Origin: Thermoplasmatota archaeon
Lineage (GTDB): Archaea > Thermoplasmatota > Thermoplasmata > Lutacidiplasmatales > JAMCUS01
NCBI GenBank assembly: GCA_023379385.1
Contig: JAMCUS010000013.1
Span: 36,635-100,634 of the forward strand
DNA: 64,000 bases
Direction: 5' to 3'
In this document: piece by piece, positions 2,919-37,441 of the stretch
How the letters are laid out: each line of letters starts with the position of its first letter
How positions within the stretch are numbered: position 1 is the first letter of the stretch
Notes under the pieces: generated by a model
Told to the model about the DNA's origin: nothing
What the model saw: the letters and a program-made list of their open reading frames with translations, nothing else
Database searches by the model: none
Made by a program: the position numbers and the translations under genes

Positions 2919-3151
2919 GCAACCACCTTTCTGGATGTTTTTAAGGAATCTACTTTTTTTATAAATTCAATGAGCATGTATGTTGTAAAAATAATCGCAC
3001 CAGATAACACAAATGCGTATACAGCATGCAGATAACTGAAGTTTGAAACAAGGGCGTATGACTGGCTATAAAGCAATACGACCTCAGCCGTATCAGCAAA
3101 TACCAGGACGGTATATATTGAAAATAGAATTAAAAAGGGATGCAGCTTCAT
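2915..3151 (-). CDS. Small membrane protein of the cytochrome b cluster
   Basis: A 78-residue protein with two hydrophobic helices (about residues 3-25 and 40-63) and a short basic C-terminal tail. It overlaps cytochrome b at its 5' end and the next small membrane protein at its 3' end, each by four bases. No heme ligands or cysteine motifs are seen and I recognise no family. As with its neighbour, a structural or assembly role in the cytochrome b/Rieske complex is the simplest reading of the context. Confidence 0.6.
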   Translation of the reverse strand: MKLHPFLILFSIYTVLVFADTAEVVLLYSQSYALVSNFSYLHAVYAFVLSGAIIFTTYMLIEFIKKVDSLKTSRKVVA

Positions 3152-4395
3152 TTATCAACACCCTCCTTTTTGTCATTGCAATCTGATGCATCACTGAAAT
3201 GTTGCTTTTTATTTTTTGTATTGCTGTGTGTAAAAGAGTTTCTCTCAGAACCGGTTGGTGTTACCTTCCTGTATTTATAGTATAAACCATATGTCAGACC
3301 AAAGTTAAATGCAATTATACCCAGCATTATTGGAATCCATACTACAGGCTGAACCTGAACAGCCGGCTGTAAATATCCCCATATTGTAAAAAGTATAAAA
3401 TAGTCTAAATTAACAGTTACGATAGAGACAAAAAAAGGTCTGTCTTTAGGGTCTCTGCTTTCGCTTCTATCAAAAAATGGCACCAGCATATAGAAAATAA
3501 CGATCACAAGTAAAATATATATTATATTGCTGCTGATAGGTACAAAATCAATTACCTTATATGGAGCTACGAGATACCATTCAGGCATAGCCTGCACAAT
3601 TACAGACGATCCCGCTTCCGGAGCAAGTGGTACTGGAAATACAGAAGCGATAACAATTACAAAACCCCATAAAATCAATGTTATACCGGCTGTATAGGAT
3701 AGGAAGGTAGGTACCCATGATAACGTAGATCCCTTTTGTTCTGTCTTCATTGATACCGGCGGTGTAGCCTCATTTTTCTCATAAAGATACATGTGTATAC
3801 CGAATAAAAGCATCAGAATTGCCGGCAATATCAAGATATGTAAGTCAAGCATTCTACCGAATTCCGATGAAATTGTGCCGTTGCCAGTTATCAATGATGC
3901 CAGGAAATTACCTATCAACGGGAATTTTGATGCTAGTCCAACACCTACATCCGTAGCATCTACAGATACCTCTGTATACGGCAGAAAGTATCCTGTAAAA
4001 CCAGATCCAACAACCACAAGAGCCATAAGTATACCTATGATCCATGCGAGCTCTCTTGGCTTTTTATACGCACCTATATAGTAATTTCTGAAAAAATGTA
4101 TAAAAATCAGCAAAATCATAACATAAGCCATATAAAGATGCGCGTTTAACAAAATAATACCGAAAGGAACCTTATTTATTATATACTGGGTACTTGAATA
4201 TGCTGTAGACGCTCCGGGTGTATAGTACAGCATTAAAAGAACCCCTGTTATGGCCTGAAATATAAAGGCTGCCGCAAGCAAACCACCGGTCCAATATGAT
4301 ATATCCATTGTATATTCAGGCATGGCCTTTAATGGTATATCCGATATGTGCGCCCTGCTATCAATCCAGTTCCAAATTATATCAAAAAAGCTCAT
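3148..4395 (-). CDS. Cytochrome b of a bc-type quinol-oxidising complex
   Basis: A 415-residue integral membrane protein, about eight helices, carrying both cytochrome b heme-binding histidine pairs. The first pair (in NAHLYMAY...FIHFF, residues about 85-99) is spaced H-X13-H. The second (LDLHILIL...FGIHMYL) is H-X14-H, the spacing of cytochrome b6 rather than mitochondrial b. The quinol-site signature PEWY is present near residue 276. The C-terminal part is fused as in cytochrome bc1, not split as in b6/subunit IV. It transfers electrons from quinol across the membrane together with the Rieske protein encoded 9 bases upstream. No cytochrome c gene is adjacent; in related acidophiles a blue copper protein or a terminal oxidase takes the electrons. 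Confidence 0.9.
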   Translation of the reverse strand: MSFFDIIWNWIDSRAHISDIPLKAMPEYTMDISYWTGGLLAAAFIFQAITGVLLMLYYTPGASTAYSSTQYIINKVPFGIILLNAHLYMAYVMILLIFIHFFRNYYIGAYKKPRELAWIIGILMALVVVGSGFTGYFLPYTEVSVDATDVGVGLASKFPLIGNFLASLITGNGTISSEFGRMLDLHILILPAILMLLFGIHMYLYEKNEATPPVSMKTEQKGSTLSWVPTFLSYTAGITLILWGFVIVIASVFPVPLAPEAGSSVIVQAMPEWYLVAPYKVIDFVPISSNIIYILLVIVIFYMLVPFFDRSESRDPKDRPFFVSIVTVNLDYFILFTIWGYLQPAVQVQPVVWIPIMLGIIAFNFGLTYGLYYKYRKVTPTGSERNSFTHSNTKNKKQHFSDASDCNDKKEGVDK

Positions 4396-4404
4396 TTTAA
4401 TTCC

Positions 4405-5049
4405 TCATTGATTATTTAAAGTGGTTACGGGAGCTGTATTTCCTTTGGGTGGACTTCCACCGGTAAGATCATCTGTATGGCCATATATTACAGGACCATT
4501 CATTTTGACCGCCTGAAGCGTATCTGTGCTAGAGTCATATGTTAGAACAACCATGGGCTGGGGTTTTGTGGTTGGACTTGTGATTATACTGCATCTATTG
4601 AAGGGATCAAAAGTACTTCCGTGACATGAGCAGTGTATATACGATGTATAACCATCAATGGGTGGCGACCCAGGTGGATAAAACTTTATACTAGGTGGTA
4701 AACACCCGAGATGCTCACATATGGCACTGTAAGCAACTATGCTGTTCTGTGGTCCAACACCACCTGGCACACTTTTACCGAGGTTCAGAAGAAAGTTTGG
4801 TTCGTTAAGAAGTGGATAATCAAACAGTACGATCTGTGGATTGTTAACAGCAATTGTACTGGCTTTTATAGGGTTTCCGGAGCTATCCACAAGTGTTAAC
4901 GCAGGAAATTCACTGACGCCTATTGTGGGAGCTACAATGTAAGATAGTGAAGGAGCAAAAGCACCCAGAGCCACCACAGCAGATCCAATGGATACCATCT
5001 TCAAAAATTTTCTTCTGGATAAATCAATTTCATTCTCTTTCTTACTCAT
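4405..5049 (-). CDS. Rieske iron-sulfur protein
   Basis: A 214-residue Rieske protein. The N-terminus SRRKFLK followed by a hydrophobic helix (about residues 12-38) is a twin-arginine-type signal anchor. The [2Fe-2S] ligands are seen as CEHLGC and CSCHGS, giving the two Cys and two His ligands plus the disulfide cysteines. It accepts electrons from quinol at the outer face of the membrane for the cytochrome b encoded next. It is the first gene of a tight minus-strand set (Rieske, cytochrome b, two small membrane proteins, crotonase-like protein). The upstream region is AT-rich with TATA-like sequence around 5090-5110. Confidence 0.9.
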   Translation of the reverse strand: MSKKENEIDLSRRKFLKMVSIGSAVVALGAFAPSLSYIVAPTIGVSEFPALTLVDSSGNPIKASTIAVNNPQIVLFDYPLLNEPNFLLNLGKSVPGGVGPQNSIVAYSAICEHLGCLPPSIKFYPPGSPPIDGYTSYIHCSCHGSTFDPFNRCSIITSPTTKPQPMVVLTYDSSTDTLQAVKMNGPVIYGHTDDLTGGSPPKGNTAPVTTLNNQ

Positions 5050-6210: not shown

Positions 6211-6307
6211 GCGGGAGTACTCAAGCATGGCCAAAGGGGCAAGGCTTAGGACCTTGTTGCGCAGGCATTCGCCGGTTCAAAATAATATTGAAAATCCGGC
6301 CTCCCGC
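6211..6307 (+). tRNA. tRNA-Leu (UAG) with an interrupted T-loop
   Basis: The acceptor stem GCGGGAG/CTCCCGC (6211-6217, 6301-6307) encloses a leucine-type tRNA with a long variable arm. The anticodon stem CAAGG/CCTTG holds the loop CTTAGGA, anticodon TAG. The T-stem GCCGG/CCGGC (6271-6275, 6296-6300) is perfect but encloses 20 bases instead of seven. Removing 13 bases restores the expected TTCAAAT loop. Within the insertion TTCAA pairs with TTGAA, leaving a 3-base bulge and a 7-base loop, a relaxed bulge-helix-loop splice site. CCA is not encoded. A TATA-like TTTATCTATAAG lies about 35 bases upstream. ValRS follows 46 bases later on the same strand. Confidence 0.9.
6281..6293 (+). other. Putative 13-nt tRNA intron in the T-loop of tRNA-Leu
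   Basis: One of several equivalent placements of the 13 bases whose removal gives a normal TTCAAAT T-loop; repeated A residues make the exact ends ambiguous by a few bases. The segment closes a 5-bp helix (6276-6280 with 6288-6292) above the T-stem. The same architecture recurs in tRNA-Glu at 24701. Confidence 0.7.
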
Positions 6308-6352
6308 ATAAATAAAAGGTTTAAAAGCTATATGTCACACAGGTGATGTCTT

Positions 6353-9034
6353 ATGAAGATGGATAATAGCAATGCTAACACAGATAATAATTTACACGAA
6401 AAAACAGATAAAGGCCCATACGATAGCAAAGAGGTAGAAACAAAATGGCAAGATTACTGGGCATCTGAATCAATATTTAAATTTATTCCGGATAGTCCAT
6501 TACCCGTGTTTTCCATAGACAACCCTCCAAGATATACGTCAGGTCCATTACATATGGGCCATGCAATAGGCTATTCCTTAATTGATTTTGTGGCTAGGTT
6601 TAAAAAAATGATAGGCTTTAATGTATTCTTTCCGTTATGCTTTGATGCCAATGGAATGCCAATAGAGATCAAAGTAGAAAAGAAATATGGAGTAAACAAA
6701 AAAAATACAGATAGAGCTAAACTTATAGAATTATGTACAGAATATTCCAATTCCAATATTGCAGAAATGGTGAGACAGTTTAGGTCTCTTGGTATAACAA
6801 TGGATAATTCTATCTATTACCAAACAGATTCACCAGAATACAGAAAATTGACCCAGATAACCTTTTTAAAATTGTATGAAAATAATATGGTGTATAGAAA
6901 AGAACATCCTGTAATATGGTGTCCACACTGTGAAACCTCACTCGCAGCTGCGGATGTTGAATACGACGAAGAATCCAAAAATTTAATTTTTATCAATTTT
7001 AAGAACGAAAAAAATAGTATACCTATAGCAACTACCAGACCTGAACTTCTTCCTACATGCCAGATGGTATTGATAAATCCGGAAGACAATAGATACAATA
7101 ACTTTGTTGGACAAAAGGTAAACGTACCCATATTTAATCAATCGGTTCCTGTTATGACTGATAGCAAGGTAGACCCATCATTTGGTACTGGAGCTGTTAT
7201 GGTCTGCACTATTGGAGATAAAGATGATCTGTTTTGGACTTATAAGTATAATTTAACATTATTGAAAGGTATTGATGAAAGCGGGAGGTTGACAGATCTA
7301 GCAGGTGTATTTTCAGGACTGACAATAATAGATGGAAGAAAAGCAATAACAAACGAATTACAAAAAACAGGCAGTGTTATAAAAATAGAAAGCATAAAAC
7401 AGAATGTTGGAAAATGCTGGAGATGCCATACACCGGTAGAGTTTGTAAACAAACTGAACTGGTTTCTAAAAACCTTGGATTATAAAGAAGAGATTAAAAA
7501 AATTAGTGATTCAATTATCTGGCACCCAGAATATATGAAAAAAAGGCTGGATTCCTGGATTGACTCTCTTCTATGGGACTGGTGCATATCGAGGCAGAGA
7601 TATTTTGCTACAGCAATTCCTGTATGGATATGTGAAAAATGTGGATACATCCTTCCCGCAAAAGTAGAGGATTGCTATATAGATACATTGATAAAAGAGC
7701 CGTACATTGAAAAATGTCCTGAATGTAATGGTAAACTGAAAGGTTCTGACGAAGTTTTTGATACGTGGATGGATTCAAGTATAACTCCCCTATACAATAG
7801 CTCCTGGAATAGGGATGGTCAGTTGTTCAAAAAACTGTATCCAATGTCTTTAAGACCTCAAGCACATGAAATAATTCGTACATGGATTTTTTATACGATA
7901 TTGAGATGCAAGCAGATGACAGATATAAAGCCATGGAACGAAGTGATGATACATGGCTTTATAATGGCACCAGATGGACGACCCATGCATGCTTCAGCTG
8001 GAAATGCTATAGACCCACTGCCAATTATTGAAAAGTACGGCGCAGATGCTTGGCGATATTACACAGCTAAATGTAAGTTGGGAGAAGACACTGCATTTCA
8101 GATAAAAGAGGTAATTCATGGAAGAAAATTTATGATAAAAATGTATAATGTATCCAAATACATAAAAATGAATGTACAAGGCATTGAAGATATTGGCAGA
8201 ATAGATCGGACAAAAGAGCTCGCCGATATTGATAAATGGATTTTAACAAAATTTAAAATTGTATTTGATACAGTGGTATCCTACTATAACAATTATGAGT
8301 TTGATAAGGCAATATCTGTTATAGAAGAATTTGCATGGCATGATTTTGCCGATTTTTATATAGAAATGAGTAAGGAACGGGCAAAAGCACATGACGCTTC
8401 GGTAGCCTATACCCTGTCCACGGTTGGTATCGGAATAATAATGTTATTAACACCCATTACCCCTCATCTAGCAGAGGAGATCTATCAGGATATTTACAGA
8501 AAAGAATATCTCGTTAAAAGTGTGAATATGCTTCCAATGTCTTTTGAATATTTGTACGATGAACAATCATATAAAATTGGTGAACTATTAAAAAACATAA
8601 TATCCAAAATATGGACATATTCTGCCACGGCACATGTTAATTCATTCAGAGTCATATTTATCGTGGGTGTTTTGAATGATTCACTTATAGAAGCATTAAA
8701 ACATATGAAAAAATTGTTAAAAACCGATGATATAAGATTTTTGAACAACACAGATATTACAACTAAACCTGTAGATGTCAGGTTATTGAAAGAAAAGGTA
8801 GGATCAATATTCCGTAATGAAATGGCTAAAGTCATAGAGATTGTAAATAAACAGGGAATATCTGTTCTATACAGGGAGCTCATGAACAACGGTTATATCG
8901 ATATTGAATTAAATGGAAGAGTTGAAAGACTGTCCAAAGATTATTTTAAAATAGAAACTACAGAAATCGTTGAGGAAATGAATGTTAAACAGATTGAAAC
9001 ATCGGGAATGGATATACACATGTATGTATCATGA
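6353..9034 (+). CDS. valS: Valyl-tRNA synthetase
   Basis: An 893-residue class Ia synthetase that charges tRNA-Val. The first half matches archaeal ValRS: NPPRYTSGPLHMGHA with the HIGH-type motif HMGH at residues 67-70, then FDANGMPIEIKVEKKYG. The editing domain carries TTRPELLPTCQ and DPSFGTGAVMVCT. Zinc-ribbon cysteine pairs occur at WCPHC, CWRC and CEKC/CPEC. WCISRQ and DTWMDSS are also typical. The KMSKS loop is strongly altered: the position reads PMHAS (residues 544-548) in GRPMHASAGN, so both lysines are absent. LeuRS and IleRS were considered, but the HMGH and editing-site contexts are valine-type. It is downstream of tRNA-Leu with a 46-base gap. Confidence 0.87.
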   Translation: MKMDNSNANTDNNLHEKTDKGPYDSKEVETKWQDYWASESIFKFIPDSPLPVFSIDNPPRYTSGPLHMGHAIGYSLIDFVARFKKMIGFNVFFPLCFDANGMPIEIKVEKKYGVNKKNTDRAKLIELCTEYSNSNIAEMVRQFRSLGITMDNSIYYQTDSPEYRKLTQITFLKLYENNMVYRKEHPVIWCPHCETSLAAADVEYDEESKNLIFINFKNEKNSIPIATTRPELLPTCQMVLINPEDNRYNNFVGQKVNVPIFNQSVPVMTDSKVDPSFGTGAVMVCTIGDKDDLFWTYKYNLTLLKGIDESGRLTDLAGVFSGLTIIDGRKAITNELQKTGSVIKIESIKQNVGKCWRCHTPVEFVNKLNWFLKTLDYKEEIKKISDSIIWHPEYMKKRLDSWIDSLLWDWCISRQRYFATAIPVWICEKCGYILPAKVEDCYIDTLIKEPYIEKCPECNGKLKGSDEVFDTWMDSSITPLYNSSWNRDGQLFKKLYPMSLRPQAHEIIRTWIFYTILRCKQMTDIKPWNEVMIHGFIMAPDGRPMHASAGNAIDPLPIIEKYGADAWRYYTAKCKLGEDTAFQIKEVIHGRKFMIKMYNVSKYIKMNVQGIEDIGRIDRTKELADIDKWILTKFKIVFDTVVSYYNNYEFDKAISVIEEFAWHDFADFYIEMSKERAKAHDASVAYTLSTVGIGIIMLLTPITPHLAEEIYQDIYRKEYLVKSVNMLPMSFEYLYDEQSYKIGELLKNIISKIWTYSATAHVNSFRVIFIVGVLNDSLIEALKHMKKLLKTDDIRFLNNTDITTKPVDVRLLKEKVGSIFRNEMAKVIEIVNKQGISVLYRELMNNGYIDIELNGRVERLSKDYFKIETTEIVEEMNVKQIETSGMDIHMYVS

Positions 9035-9486: not shown

Positions 9487-11079
9487 ATGGCGACTGGGAA
9501 TGTAGCAACAAAAATACCTGTGAAAGGTGTTCCATCTTCAGAGCATGAGATAATTACACCGGAAATTTCAAATTTTATTGCATCTCCTGGTGAAAAATAT
9601 TTAAGATACAGATCTGAGGTTCCACGATTTGACCTTGGTCAGATACCTTTTTTTGATTGGTTATTTCATCAGAGATGGTGGCAATTTGTAACAGCGTTTC
9701 CCAATGTGGTTATCTTTAATCTCGTCCTGGTTGCCGGCTTCATAGGAGTAACAGACCCAAACGTAAATTTTGCTACTGTAATTACATGGTATCTGTGGTT
9801 CACGGTTGTTTTTTTCCTGATGGTAGGGGTGGGTAGAGGATGGTGTCTTATATGTCCATTTTCTGCTCAATCTGAATGGATACAGCGATTAAGTATATGG
9901 GGCAAGAATAAGCATAATTTAACACTCAATAAAAAATGGCCAGCAATGTATTCAACAGTGTTGATATCCATTATATTTTTTGTAGTTCTTACTTTTTTTG
10001 AAGAGTATTTCAATATAGCTGGGCCCGGTTTACCATTTATGACTGCTACTCTCGTTCTGGGAATTATCACGTGGGATATCTTTTATGCGCTTGTATTTGA
10101 GAGAAGAAGTTTCTGCAGGTATGGATGTCCTCTAACAGGAATAATAGGTGTGGTTTCTTCCATGTCTCCTTTTGATGGGTACAGAACTAAAAATCCCGAT
10201 ATATGTAAAAGATGCAGAACGAAGGAATGTATGAGAGGTAGTGATGTTAGCTATGGGTGCCCATGGTATGAATATCCTGGTTCAATGAGTACCAATTTTA
10301 ATTGTGGAATCTGCACGGAATGTGTTAAGGGGTGCCCCCATAATAATATAGGACTTGCTGCGAGAGTTCCTGTTGCTGATACATGGGCTCCAAAAGTTAA
10401 GAAATTTGATATTGCACTCTCTGTTACCTTATTGCTAGGTTTAACATGGTTTCAGATGTTTAATGCACTTCCATTTTACACCACCATGAACAATTATCTT
10501 AACAATGTAACAGGATGGTATACTTTTTCAAGAAATTCAATGATGTTGCATGGATTGGGTAGCTATTATCCAAATCCACTTGATTTTGTTGCATTTGTGC
10601 TTTTGGGTCCGGCTATTATGCTACTCTTATCATATATGGGATACGTGATATCTAATAAAAAGTATGGCATAAAGAAGCTATTTACGCTCTATTCATACGC
10701 CCTTATACCTTTATTTGCAGGTACTATACTGGCAAGGCAGTTTCCAAAGTTCCTTACCAATTCTGATATTGTACCTAAATATGCATCGTCACCAATGGGA
10801 TTCAAGGGATGGAATCTTTTAGGTACCCTAACATTGCCTGCCATGTATAGCTCAACCACACCTGTTTATGTATGGCAGGTGCAGGTTATAACTGTTATTA
10901 TTTTTGGAATATTATCAATATATGCAGCATATAAATTGTTAAAGGTGGATTTTGATGGTTCTAAAGAATCAAAAAGAGTGTTTGCTATAATGGTAACATC
11001 ATTTATTCTGTTAATAATAATGAATGCGGTACTGTACTATTACATGGCTTTCTTCAATGGTATGTCTGCACCGTTTTGA
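9487..11079 (+). CDS. NapH/NosR/CcoG-like membrane polyferredoxin
   Basis: A 530-residue membrane protein with about eight helices and a central iron-sulfur segment. Two CX3CP motifs (WCLICP near residue 120, CRYGCP near 214) are those of the NapH, NosR and CcoG families. A cytoplasmic segment follows with CX2CX4C...CP (near residues 240-258) and a classic CX2CX2CX3CP (CGICTECVKGCP), ligands for [4Fe-4S] clusters. Such proteins pass electrons between quinol or ferredoxin and a partner across the membrane. It leads a run of six same-strand genes including two ferredoxins. No nitrate, nitrous oxide or cytochrome oxidase gene is nearby, so its partner is unknown. A GAGG site precedes the ATG. 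Confidence 0.75.
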   Translation: MATGNVATKIPVKGVPSSEHEIITPEISNFIASPGEKYLRYRSEVPRFDLGQIPFFDWLFHQRWWQFVTAFPNVVIFNLVLVAGFIGVTDPNVNFATVITWYLWFTVVFFLMVGVGRGWCLICPFSAQSEWIQRLSIWGKNKHNLTLNKKWPAMYSTVLISIIFFVVLTFFEEYFNIAGPGLPFMTATLVLGIITWDIFYALVFERRSFCRYGCPLTGIIGVVSSMSPFDGYRTKNPDICKRCRTKECMRGSDVSYGCPWYEYPGSMSTNFNCGICTECVKGCPHNNIGLAARVPVADTWAPKVKKFDIALSVTLLLGLTWFQMFNALPFYTTMNNYLNNVTGWYTFSRNSMMLHGLGSYYPNPLDFVAFVLLGPAIMLLLSYMGYVISNKKYGIKKLFTLYSYALIPLFAGTILARQFPKFLTNSDIVPKYASSPMGFKGWNLLGTLTLPAMYSSTTPVYVWQVQVITVIIFGILSIYAAYKLLKVDFDGSKESKRVFAIMVTSFILLIIMNAVLYYYMAFFNGMSAPF

Positions 11080-11091
11080 GGTGTTATTGGA

Positions 11092-11331
11092 ATGGTTGCG
11101 AAAATAAATTATGAAAGATGTGTAGGTTGCGAGGAATGTGTGGTTGCATGTGCAAGAGATCACTGCATTCATCTTGAAGAGTCTACCAATATCATTGTTG
11201 TTAACGAATCCACGTGCAACAATTGTGGTGCGTGTGTCAAGAGATGTCCATTCAGATGTATAGACCTTGTAGGAGATATAGGACCTTTAGCAAGAAAACC
11301 ATCTATGGTTGCTACAGCAGTAAAAAGCTGA
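11092..11331 (+). CDS. Two-cluster [4Fe-4S] ferredoxin
   Basis: A 79-residue bacterial-type ferredoxin with two complete motifs: CVGCEECVVAC near the N-terminus and CNNCGACVKRCP near residue 45. It should carry two [4Fe-4S] clusters and act as a cytoplasmic electron carrier or as a subunit docked on the membrane protein encoded just before it. The first motif lacks the proline that usually follows the fourth cysteine. It begins 12 bases after the polyferredoxin gene. Confidence 0.85.
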   Translation: MVAKINYERCVGCEECVVACARDHCIHLEESTNIIVVNESTCNNCGACVKRCPFRCIDLVGDIGPLARKPSMVATAVKS

Positions 11332-11348
11332 ATAATAAAGGTGTCAAA

Positions 11349-11636
11349 ATGAAAGAAATATCATTTAATACGGGTGCATTGATAGTTGGAGTGTTTGTAT
11401 GGATTGTCCTGGCCATAGGTATACTTTTACACAGTTTATTTATCATCATACTATCGTCACTTACCCTGGGGCTTGTATCAGCTGTATGGATTGTAATGAT
11501 TTCAGCAGCCATATCTGAACATCTTAAAAAAAGAAAGTATAAAGATGTTAAGGGTGCAGACATAACATATAACTATGTTTCCTTTATAGATCCGTCTATT
11601 ATGAAAAATAACGATAAAATAAAAAAGGGGGAATAA
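11349..11636 (+). CDS. Small membrane protein of the redox cluster
   Basis: A 95-residue protein with two hydrophobic helices (about residues 7-28 and 31-52) and a charged cytoplasmic tail. I start it at ATG 11349, preceded by GGTGTC; the open frame runs back to 11214, but that part would overlap the ferredoxin gene in another frame. No cysteine or histidine motif suggests a cofactor. It ends one base before the next gene. No family recognised. Confidence 0.65.
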   Translation: MKEISFNTGALIVGVFVWIVLAIGILLHSLFIIILSSLTLGLVSAVWIVMISAAISEHLKKRKYKDVKGADITYNYVSFIDPSIMKNNDKIKKGE

Positions 11637-11637
11637 T

Positions 11638-12555
11638 ATGAAAGCTAACCAGATTTTTAATGCAGCAATCTCTCTCTATATAATTGCTTTATTATCAAAT
11701 ATATATGATGTATATCTTGCAGCCATTAACAGAAGCATGTTTACAACAGTACAGACTATAACACTTACGGGAATTACCCTGACAATCTATCCTGCTTTTG
11801 ATGATTTTTTATATGACTTAGCTGGTCTTGTACTCATATTCATACTGATTTTTGCGTTAGGTATGGCATGGAAACTTGATCCGATAAAGGGCAAAGGAAG
11901 AAAATATAGATGGGCAGCGATGATACTTGCATTTATAGCAATTATTCCGAATTTGACCGATGTTTTTCCAAGTATTTTATCTATATTCCCAAATCCATCT
12001 CTATTTTACTGGAAAGCAGATAGTGGCGCTGATTTAGTTGCCGTCATTACAATCCTGTTAGGATGGGTGCTAGCAGAGGTATGGTTTGCATCTGTTGGCG
12101 CAGGTGTTCCTAAAGGATACGGATATGCAGACATAATTGCTAGAAATCCAAGACTCAGACTGATCAACAGAATTATAAATGTTGTCGTGCCACTGGGAGT
12201 ATTTTCTACTTTCTGGCTCATAACATATATATTGACATGGAATCTCATTCACACACCAGGTTATGTATTATCCAGCACATCTTTTGCAGGAACCAGAGCA
12301 ATAACACTGTTTTATATAATCTGGTATCCATTCGTAATAGTATATAGCTCCATTGCCATCAGAGATGTGTACATGAGTATAAAAGGTAGCTGGGAAGATG
12401 TTAGAAAACTCAACGCACCCATCCTGGGTGAACCCAGTATAACAAAGGGAAGACCTCCCGTACCACCAAATGTAGACATATATAAAACATATAAAATAAA
12501 TGAAAAACTTTACGATAAACTGCTACCACCGTCAGAACCAGGCACCAACAAATAA
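11638..12555 (+). CDS. Multi-spanning membrane protein of the redox cluster
   Basis: A 305-residue protein with about seven predicted helices and a polar, proline-rich C-terminal tail (PPVPPNVD). Almost no histidines or cysteines are present, so it is unlikely to bind heme or iron-sulfur clusters. Its place directly after the small membrane protein, in a run that includes two ferredoxins, suggests a quinone-interacting or ion-conducting subunit. That is inference; I recognise no family. Confidence 0.6.
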   Translation: MKANQIFNAAISLYIIALLSNIYDVYLAAINRSMFTTVQTITLTGITLTIYPAFDDFLYDLAGLVLIFILIFALGMAWKLDPIKGKGRKYRWAAMILAFIAIIPNLTDVFPSILSIFPNPSLFYWKADSGADLVAVITILLGWVLAEVWFASVGAGVPKGYGYADIIARNPRLRLINRIINVVVPLGVFSTFWLITYILTWNLIHTPGYVLSSTSFAGTRAITLFYIIWYPFVIVYSSIAIRDVYMSIKGSWEDVRKLNAPILGEPSITKGRPPVPPNVDIYKTYKINEKLYDKLLPPSEPGTNK

Positions 12556-12811
12556 AATATATGTGTATCTATATAATTTGTTTATAGGACAGTAAAGGTA
12601 TTAGGAAACCGCTAAAAACAGTCGCTTTAGTTGATGAAACTGATCACATATCGTGAACAATCATTCATAAAGGTGTCATCACCAATCCAATCATATTGTA
12701 TATACCAGCATGAATCATATATATGTAATTTACATATATTATATACTCTTATTTTTGTAATTAGAAAAGGAATATATATTTTATTAGAAGTAAAAGCTTC
12801 AGGTGTATGAT

Positions 12812-13666
12812 ATGTTTGACAAAAAAGTATCAAAGATGAAAGGGGCATTACCAATATTTATGTTGCTGGTTATGGCACTCTCCTTAGGGTTCCTGGGATT
12901 GGTTACCACTTTCGTATCTGTAGGGCATGTGGTTGCAAGTTCTTCCCAGAATATAAGTAACGGGGTGAGTTCTGGATTATCTGCAGGTGGCTCTGTATTT
13001 ACAGAGGCTACCATTGCATTAGTTGTAGGTATTCTTTTCATAGGGGCTTTTAGCTTACAAATCGCCAGAAACTATTTTCTCAGGATTCTAGATAAGTTTA
13101 CGTTAAGGCTTGGTGCGGATATCTGGTGGCTGGCGTATGTGCTTATAAGAGATGGATTGATGTTTGCTATTGTTCTTATGGGTTTTGAACTGTTTTATGT
13201 GGGTACGTATACCGATTATCCCATTGCCGTTCCATTTATGCCGTTGGCCATAGTATTTATTGCAGCAGCCCTGGCAACGAAGCTTATTTACGACACAGAT
13301 GAGAGTGAAAATGCGAATAGATTTGTATCTATCCTAATAGCGGCAGGTACTTTCCTTTATGTTATTGGTGTTGTGTTTGTAACGGAAAATATAATAGGAT
13401 ATGCGAATGCAAATTATACAACCACATCAACAGGTACGATAACAACCCCAGCAGGTGGATCCAACATATGGACCTACATGTATAATACCTTCAGTTCAAC
13501 GGTAAATACAACGTTAGCACTTGATAGTTTCTATGTATGTTTTGCACTGCTTTCATTGATTGCTTTGATAGTCTTTGTCTACGTAACATTCCCTGTAAAA
13601 ATAGGCAGAAATGCTAAGGCTACCGACGGGCCATCAACAAGAAAAAATGTGGTGGAGGAAGAATAG
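12812..13666 (+). CDS. Multi-spanning membrane protein of the redox cluster
   Basis: A 284-residue protein with about six or seven helices and a short acidic tail ending VVEEE. I start at ATG 12812 because a GGTG site lies 6 bases upstream; a GTG at 12803 would overlap that site. It is separated from the previous gene by about 250 bases of AT-rich DNA, so it may have its own promoter. It is nevertheless sandwiched between the other redox-cluster membrane genes and a ferredoxin. No cofactor ligands and no known family are visible. Confidence 0.55.
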   Translation: MFDKKVSKMKGALPIFMLLVMALSLGFLGLVTTFVSVGHVVASSSQNISNGVSSGLSAGGSVFTEATIALVVGILFIGAFSLQIARNYFLRILDKFTLRLGADIWWLAYVLIRDGLMFAIVLMGFELFYVGTYTDYPIAVPFMPLAIVFIAAALATKLIYDTDESENANRFVSILIAAGTFLYVIGVVFVTENIIGYANANYTTTSTGTITTPAGGSNIWTYMYNTFSSTVNTTLALDSFYVCFALLSLIALIVFVYVTFPVKIGRNAKATDGPSTRKNVVEEE

Positions 13667-13707
13667 AGATCCAATCAAACCCTTTATTATTATCTGTGGG
13701 TGATAAT

Positions 13708-14232
13708 ATGATAAAACATTACTTAGAGATATCCGGTCAATGTCATTCGTGTGGTGTATGCATGGATGTATGTCCTGTAAAGGCAATTGACATGACACCA
13801 CCCCCGAGAGCGAGTATTGAAGGTGGAATTGATAAAAAGATATGGATGACTGAGTTTCCAATATTGACTGGCAGGTGTATAGGTTGCAAGATATGCGTTG
13901 CAGAATGCCCTTTTGACGCCATAACACTTGTAAAGGATTCGGAGATAAAACAGGAAAAGATATTGAAAAAAGATGTAAGTGATATATTTGATAGAGCCAA
14001 AAAAATGAGAAAAAGTTCAACCACCTCTCTGTCAGAAGAAAAGGACTGGAGATCCTTCCATCCACTTTCAGAGCTTACAAGAGATATTCTTAAAAGACCT
14101 GTACGCAGTTCATTTCCCCAAAAAATCGTATTTAAGCCGTGGATATCTCCCATTGCAGTCAGTGCAAATAAAAAGAAATATACCTACAAAGAGCAGTGGA
14201 AGGTATGGAGAATCATGAAATCAGATAAGTAA
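13708..14232 (+). CDS. [4Fe-4S] ferredoxin-like protein with C-terminal extension
   Basis: A 174-residue protein with two [4Fe-4S] motifs, CHSCGVCMDVCP and CIGCKICVAECP, about 40 residues apart, then a basic C-terminal extension of about 90 residues without cysteines. The start at ATG 13708 follows a GGGTGAT site; a GTG at 13696 is the upstream alternative. The insert between the clusters and the tail suggest a dedicated subunit rather than a free carrier. It is the last gene of the redox cluster, followed by a short inverted repeat (CTCCT/AGGAG, about 14237-14258) that could aid termination. Confidence 0.75.
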   Translation: MIKHYLEISGQCHSCGVCMDVCPVKAIDMTPPPRASIEGGIDKKIWMTEFPILTGRCIGCKICVAECPFDAITLVKDSEIKQEKILKKDVSDIFDRAKKMRKSSTTSLSEEKDWRSFHPLSELTRDILKRPVRSSFPQKIVFKPWISPIAVSANKKKYTYKEQWKVWRIMKSDK

Positions 14233-24597: not shown

Positions 24598-24738
24598 GAT
24601 CTGTTAAATAATAATGTCTTTGCCAATTTTTATAAAAATAGCAAACTGCATCTATTTATTAGCAAATTAGAAATATACAAATCATATAATCTTCATATAT
24701 GCTCCCGTAGTGTAGTGGTCAAACATCGAGGCCTCTCG

Positions 24739-24752
24739 AGGTTTCTGGAGAC
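24739..24752 (+). other. Putative 14-nt tRNA intron at position 37/38 of tRNA-Glu
   Basis: Removal joins the loop CTCTCG to A and restores a 5-bp anticodon stem with one G-U pair. TCTC (24734-24737) can pair with GAGA (24748-24751) to form the central helix of a relaxed splice motif. Confidence 0.75.
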
Positions 24753-24772
24753 AGTCTCGGCCCCGGGTTCAA

Positions 24773-24785
24773 AGCTATGTTGAAA
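24773..24785 (+). other. Putative 13-nt tRNA intron in the T-loop of tRNA-Glu
   Basis: One of several equivalent placements of a 13-base insertion in the T-loop at 24768-24787. The core AGCTATG loop differs from the tRNA-Leu insertion, but the helix, length and bulge are the same. Confidence 0.7.
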
Positions 24786-24898
24786 ATCCCGGCGGGAGCA
24801 GTAGTTTATGTATTTAATTTAGAGCTGATGAAATTAGATATTTGAAAAAATGTGTAATGGGAAATGTTTATTATATAGAATGCAAATAAACATTACAT

Positions 24899-37340: not shown

Positions 37341-37440
37341 GTCGGGGTGGCTCAGACTGGTAGAGTATCGGACTCATAGGGTTTATTTATGATACTACCG
37401 GAGATATCCGGGGGCCGCGAGTTCAAATCTCGCCCCCGAC
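37341..37440 (+). tRNA. Elongator tRNA-Met (CAU) with 27-nt intron
   Basis: Acceptor stem GTCGGGG/CCCCGAC. The anticodon stem TCGGA (37368-37372) pairs with TCCGG (37407-37411) once 27 bases at 37379-37405 are removed, the canonical 37/38 position; the anticodon CAT is at 37375-37377. The T-arm GCGAG-TTCAAAT-CTCGC is normal. The body resembles archaeal elongator tRNA-Met; tRNA-Ile with a modified CAU is a less likely alternative. Confidence 0.87.
37379..37405 (+). other. tRNA-Met intron at 37/38
   Basis: The 27 bases interrupt the anticodon loop between positions 37 and 38. Their removal leaves CTCATAA as the loop. Confidence 0.8.
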
Positions 37441-37441
37441 A

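Follow-up and report, generated by a model that had tools for sequence, protein, structure and literature searches.

Predicted T-loop introns in tRNA-Leu(UAG) and other tRNAs of a Thermoplasmata genome with a single alpha'2-type splicing endonuclease

Archaeal tRNA introns and splicing endonucleases

The tRNA introns of Thermoproteales lie in the D-arm, the anticodon and the T-arm, with up to three in one gene, and reach a published mean of 0.84 per gene, with 0.21 for archaea overall (PMC8450103). The Thermoplasmatota genome analyzed here shares with them the T-loop position, the presence of multi-intron tRNAs and a similar density (0.88 per gene), but differs in its host phylum, in its splicing endonuclease (EndA), which by its layout is alpha'2 rather than their (alpha-beta)2 with a crenarchaeal loop (CSL), and in its T-loop introns, which are mostly bulge-helix-loop (BHL) forms of 13–14 nt. 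The genome is as intron-rich as those of Thermoproteales, and the scale and shape of its introns are what is unusual.

In reviews, non-canonical and multiple introns are tied to (alpha-beta)2 or ARMAN epsilon2 enzymes (PMC4090602, PMC4033280), and archaea with alpha4 or alpha2 endonucleases are described as having few introns, located only at 37/38 and only in strict bulge-helix-bulge (BHB) form (PMC4090602). The papers disagree on BHL cutting by alpha'2-type enzymes. Given a full-length pre-tRNA, the homodimeric Archaeoglobus fulgidus enzyme can excise BHL introns (PMC6379350), and cutting of BHL-like motifs is also ascribed to homodimeric forms (PMC8707768), whereas alpha'2 EndAs are stated to be limited to canonical BHB elsewhere (PMC4033280, PMC12397907), and the review rule (PMC4090602) also stands against such cutting. 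In the literature searched, we found no report of a T-loop BHL assayed on an alpha'2 EndA.

The insertion in tRNA-Leu(UAG)

Unless otherwise marked, coordinates are positions in the window, the whole 64,000-nt stretch of the Thermoplasmata genome that was analyzed.

6211–6308, + strand: tRNA-Leu(UAG) gene, anticodon TAG at 6247–6249, single copy in the assembly
6271–6300, + strand: T-arm, stem GCCGG (6271–6275) and CCGGC (6296–6300) with a 20-nt loop
6276–6279, + strand: exon strand of the central helix, TTCA, pairing with TGAA at 6289–6292
6282–6294, + strand: 13-nt predicted intron ATAATATTGAAAA, predicted cuts at 59/60, after A6281 and before T6295
6289–6292, + strand: intron strand of the central helix, TGAA, whose first base covaries with exon R57 in related introns
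6293–6295, + strand: 3' bulge AAT, containing the predicted 3' splice site AA/T

We found all stems of the tRNA-Leu(UAG) gene to be perfect, including the 7-bp acceptor stem (GCGGGAG 6211–6217 with CTCCCGC 6301–6307, followed by the discriminator A6308), the 5-bp anticodon stem (arm CAAGG-CTTAGGA-CCTTG, 6240–6256) and the 5-bp T-stem; the variable arm is long. The initial annotation had set the gene at 6211–6307, a range that omits the discriminator base. Its reading of the T-arm holds directly: the T-loop (6276–6295, TTCAAAATAATATTGAAAAT) has 20 nt versus the usual seven, and taking out 13 nt (6282–6294) leaves the standard TTCAAAT. A repeats around the predicted intron leave its boundaries uncertain by up to 3 nt, with the spliced product TTCAAAT unchanged in each case. 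Neither ARAGORN nor Rfam, the latter even at E<=10, recognizes the unspliced gene, and ARAGORN calls a tRNA-Leu(tag) only once the 13 nt are removed in silico. Its sequence marks the insertion as an archaeal tRNA intron of the non-canonical kind, located at 59/60. Since standard tRNA finders miss such genes, Thermoplasmatota tRNA sets may be under-reported.

A gene that finders miss could also be a decayed or unused copy carrying a chance insertion. We consider this extremely unlikely, given the perfect stems and the recurrence of this type of insertion, which 13 further tRNAs of the genome carry (for several of their anticodons no other gene was found) and which also occurs in another class, in the tRNA-Leu(UAG) of four genomes. 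Nor is the gene a pseudogene beside an intact tRNA-Leu(UAG), as our set of tRNAs from the 93.8%-complete assembly contains no second Leu-UAG gene; Leu-CAA, -GAG, -CAG and -UAA are each encoded by a separate gene.

Folding supported the exon–intron helix with a 3-nt bulge that had been proposed from the sequence: the whole gene (−39.4 kcal/mol, z −3.3) and the isolated T-arm (z −2.9) both reach their energy minimum with a TTCAA/TTGAA helix that closes a 7-nt loop and leaves 3 nt bulged. The fifth pair, A-U, is possible in Leu but not conserved in the other introns, so the shared element is a 4-bp core (TTCA/TGAA), with the predicted splice sites beside it and covariation at pair 57. The full hBHBh' motif is absent, with the 3' bulge AAT in place, no more than 2 bp of intron helix and an open loop on the 5' side, which makes the form a BHL and not a BHB. 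Standard cut positions in the bulges yield exactly the 59/60 junction, and removal leaves a 7-nt T-loop and a recognizable tRNA, as expected of an EndA-type intron at this position.

We therefore favor, with a probability of roughly 0.87, a 13-nt BHL intron at 59/60 that would be cut by a single alpha'2 EndA and joined by RtcB into a normal UUCAAAU loop. In the precursor, exon U54-U55-C56-A57 would pair with intron UGAA beside the 3' splice site, so that this site would sit in a 3-nt bulge adjoining the T-stem and the terminal loop would contain the 5' site; the single homodimeric enzyme would cut both sites, and RtcB, whose gene is present in the genome, would then join the exons. The gene sequence by itself would also allow a mature tRNA that retains all 20 nt as an enlarged T-loop. 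This is scarcely conceivable, because the insert ranges from 13 to 39 nt across tRNAs and genomes with exon complementarity kept, the remaining bases always restore a standard T-loop, and uninterrupted tRNAs of the genome have the normal TTCAAAT.

Several neighboring genes were also observed. The synthetase gene adjoining the tRNA (6353–9034) encodes a valyl-tRNA synthetase (NF009687) with an unusual form, MHASAGN, at the expected position of the KMSKS signature; as this is valS and not leuS, we claim no functional link with tRNA-Leu. Respiratory genes at 3148–5049 and 9487–14232 include cytochrome b and a Rieske protein; these are followed by a run of membrane proteins that match no Pfam family, flanked by a 4Fe-4S membrane protein and a ferredoxin-like protein.

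T-loop introns in other tRNAs and in related genomes

The motif GTTCAAN{5,16}TGAAAATC had 11 matches in the genome, 10 of them in the T-arms of different tRNA genes, and none in a reversed control, so the insertion is not due to chance. Besides Leu(UAG), the motif occurs in tRNA-Gly(CCC), Glu(CUC), Leu(UAA), Gly(UCC), Ser(GCU), Asp, Asn, Arg(UCU) and Arg(UCG), and the T-stems and intron loops differ among the ten genes. A covariance model built from T-loop-intron tRNA genes, along with low Rfam matches, added Lys(UUU), Arg(CCG), Gln(CUG) and Ser(UGA), the last two with a purine–purine mismatch at the fourth central-helix pair (position 57). The pattern matches L263, L269, L270 and L047 and a low-scoring Rfam match at C24:75344 (L252) were rejected, as they are not tRNAs.

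Across 41 tRNA genes we counted at least 14 T-loop, 14 anticodon-loop and 8 D-loop introns, 36 in total or 0.88 per gene, which is a lower bound drawn from searches that may miss tRNAs and that did not find His, Tyr, Gln-UUG, Pro-CGG, Thr-GGU or Val-UAC tRNAs in the 93.8%-complete assembly. Anticodon- and D-loop introns were assigned from ARAGORN intron calls and by eye. Two further intron-bearing genes lie in the window:

24701–24800, + strand: tRNA-Glu(CUC), with a 14-nt anticodon-loop intron and a 13-nt T-loop intron at 24774–24786
37341–37441, + strand: tRNA-Met(CAU), listed for comparison, whose 27-nt anticodon-loop intron is ordinary

Both tRNA-Leu(UAA) (C19:39892–40025, − strand) and tRNA-Arg(CCG) (C22:61976–62094) apparently carry three introns, in the D-loop, anticodon loop and T-loop. 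D-loop insertions of about 11–26 nt were seen in tRNA-Thr(CGU), Thr(UGU), Arg(CCU), Arg(GCG), Arg(UCU) and Lys(UUU); in a brute-force check, four of the eight had a 4-bp central helix and also 4 bp or more of intron helix, giving a full BHB fit (Lys-UUU, Thr-UGU, Arg-CCU and Arg-GCG), and the remaining four were weaker. Among the 12 T-loop introns measured in the genome, 11 are only 13–14 nt long and form no more than 2 bp of intron helix, and the Lys-UUU intron (26 nt) is the only one that keeps a long helix.

Because U54, U55 and C56 do not vary in tRNA, three of the four central-helix pairs cannot covary, which leaves base 57 as the only test of the helix. In 66 distinct loops, most of them collected with a pattern that allowed all four base combinations at this pair, exon R57 and its intron partner formed A-U in 20, G-C in 45, G-U in 1 and A-C in none (Fisher p = 5e-16, uncorrected for relatedness and indicative only, as related genomes are not independent). 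Likewise, 98.8% of cells were paired across 13 tRNAs from two classes, compared to 73% when shuffled and at most 51% when slid.

We searched 392 genomes of the phylum with a strict short pattern, which had 10 matches in this genome and otherwise stood out only in one family of another class in the same phylum (f30). Those f30 matches that we examined proved to be tRNA genes. Four genomes contribute a Leu(UAG) gene whose intron forms a full BHB, and the f30 Leu-UAG gene folded as an exact 3-4-3 BHB. A first pattern with short spacing had suggested introns private to this genome, an idea rejected once longer introns were allowed in the pattern and the weak Rfam matches of the nearest family were seen to be T-loop-intron tRNAs. 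With longer introns allowed, 92 of 131 genomes of the class matched. The motif spans 14 or more families of this class and reaches a second class of the phylum; a textbook BHB is its usual form. Matches far outnumbered those of a reversed control in families such as f3 (47 vs 1) and f7 (19 vs 0), and the control was low in most families.

Among the matches listed, 38 distinct class loci from 12 further families were picked by eye as tRNA-like and so are not a random sample; all 38 have a perfect 5-bp T-stem. ARAGORN called no tRNA at 28 of these until they were spliced, called five either way and called five neither way, and all 15 f30 loci went from no call to a tRNA on splicing. Predicted T-loop introns are thus common in Thermoplasmata, mostly as strict BHBs moved to 59/60, and not foreign to the group as initially supposed. 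We found no remark on this in the searchable literature, though tRNA databases may list some of these introns. Among the genomes searched, contigs of this genome matched only Thermoplasmata MAGs, at 31–62% identity over the best segment. Isolates from acidic soil similar to those named Lutacidiplasmatales (PMC9287336) belong to the class, and this genome can be assigned to that order only tentatively.

The introns of the class and of f30 share with those of this genome the 59/60 site, the central helix TTCR/YGAA and the 3' bulge, but are longer, with means of 30 nt in class relatives and 17 nt in f30 versus 14 nt here. They also often have an intron helix, which 11 of 12 lack here: a helix of at least 3 bp was present in 59% of the T-loop introns of class relatives versus 13.5% of shuffled interiors. 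The BHL introns are probably a shrunken form of the BHB T-loop introns found across Thermoplasmata.

A single alpha'2-type EndA and helix-less introns

A PF01974 search of the genome returned one EndA gene, on another contig (L031:1477–2565), and a 14-bit stray match to 20 positions. The 363-aa product has two stretches that match both PF02778 and PF01974 (the latter at residues 88–171 and 272–355), in the alpha'2 order of two units fused in one chain, the second of which is catalytic. Residues Y301, H309, K340, R333 and R360 are invariant in 33 of 33 aligned homologs, and the second bulge-stacking position is Arg, not Trp, completing the Arg pair of alpha'2 enzymes. In a profile alignment to 3p1y (A. 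fulgidus EndA with a grafted CSL) and 4fz2, the protein has wild-type A. fulgidus length at the CSL graft site and the ASL site, with no CSL or ASL specificity loop. Its AlphaFold model (pLDDT 91.9) matched 5x89 (TM 0.84) and A. fulgidus structures (0.73–0.77) far above ARMAN-2 (0.58–0.60) in Foldseek.

These features place EndA in the alpha'2 type, neither heteromeric nor ARMAN-like: (alpha-beta)2 enzymes have separate subunit genes and a CSL, versus a single gene without an insertion of CSL length here, and epsilon2 enzymes have three units (alphaN-alpha-betaC) and an ASL with Lys161, versus two units without the loop. The enzyme shares its catalytic fold and Tyr-His-Lys triad with ARMAN-2 epsilon2 (4fz2, 9w2k) and Aeropyrum pernix (alpha-beta)2 EndA (3p1z), and presumably their job of cutting BHL introns, but lacks their unit order, specificity loop and stacking-site Trp. 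With A. fulgidus alpha'2 EndA (1rlv, 2gjw) it shares the two-unit chain, the length at the CSL/ASL site and the bulge-stacking Arg pair, and it differs in length (363 versus 305 aa) and in a longer loop, RGGNPKRNPSRYW, in the non-catalytic unit.

The initial annotation had looked to a relaxed heteromeric or ARMAN-type endonuclease, a suggestion that the gene found here does not support. Removal by a relaxed (alpha-beta)2 or ARMAN epsilon2 enzyme, possibly acquired from another archaeon, would fit the reviews that tie non-canonical and multiple introns to such types (PMC4090602, PMC4033280), but the lone EndA gene of the 93.8%-complete assembly, its unit order, its wild-type length at the loop sites and the Foldseek ranking make this very unlikely. 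With the step from T-loop intron to ARMAN-like enzyme unsupported, the point to explain is how an alpha'2 EndA handles helix-less introns. The genome's combination of BHL introns and a single alpha'2 EndA implies that this enzyme must tolerate BHL introns without an intron helix, and the load and shape of the introns, with 11 of the 12 measured in T-loops lacking that helix, conflict with the published rule of single, canonical introns for alpha'2 enzymes.

It is possible, though we hold it as a tentative idea rather than a probable one, that an alpha'2 EndA without CSL or ASL gained broad specificity by another route, which would have allowed an intron burst of Thermoproteales size and the shrinking of T-loop introns to helix-less 13-nt forms. 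With T- and D-loop introns, triple-intron tRNAs and an alpha'2 EndA without known specificity loops, the genome and its class contradict the review rule (PMC4090602), so that co-evolution of enzyme type and intron load becomes directly testable; the material would be one recombinant enzyme and the naturally occurring BHB and BHL substrates that share a tRNA position.

We also observed that the basic loop RGGNPKRNPSRYW (residues 117–130 of the non-catalytic unit) is conserved in Thermoplasmata EndAs; the A. fulgidus enzyme lacks it, and in ARMAN-2 EndA its aligned counterpart lies in the beta-C unit (RGGDIEIPGKNSPRF). This RGGxPxxxPS loop is a possible candidate for the source of relaxed EndA specificity. 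Separately, the EndAs most divergent from this one (E about 1e-11 to 1e-24) were those of families f12 and f15, where the T-loop-intron pattern was at or near control (no matches in f12, 17 vs 10 in f15), which suggests enzyme–intron co-evolution.
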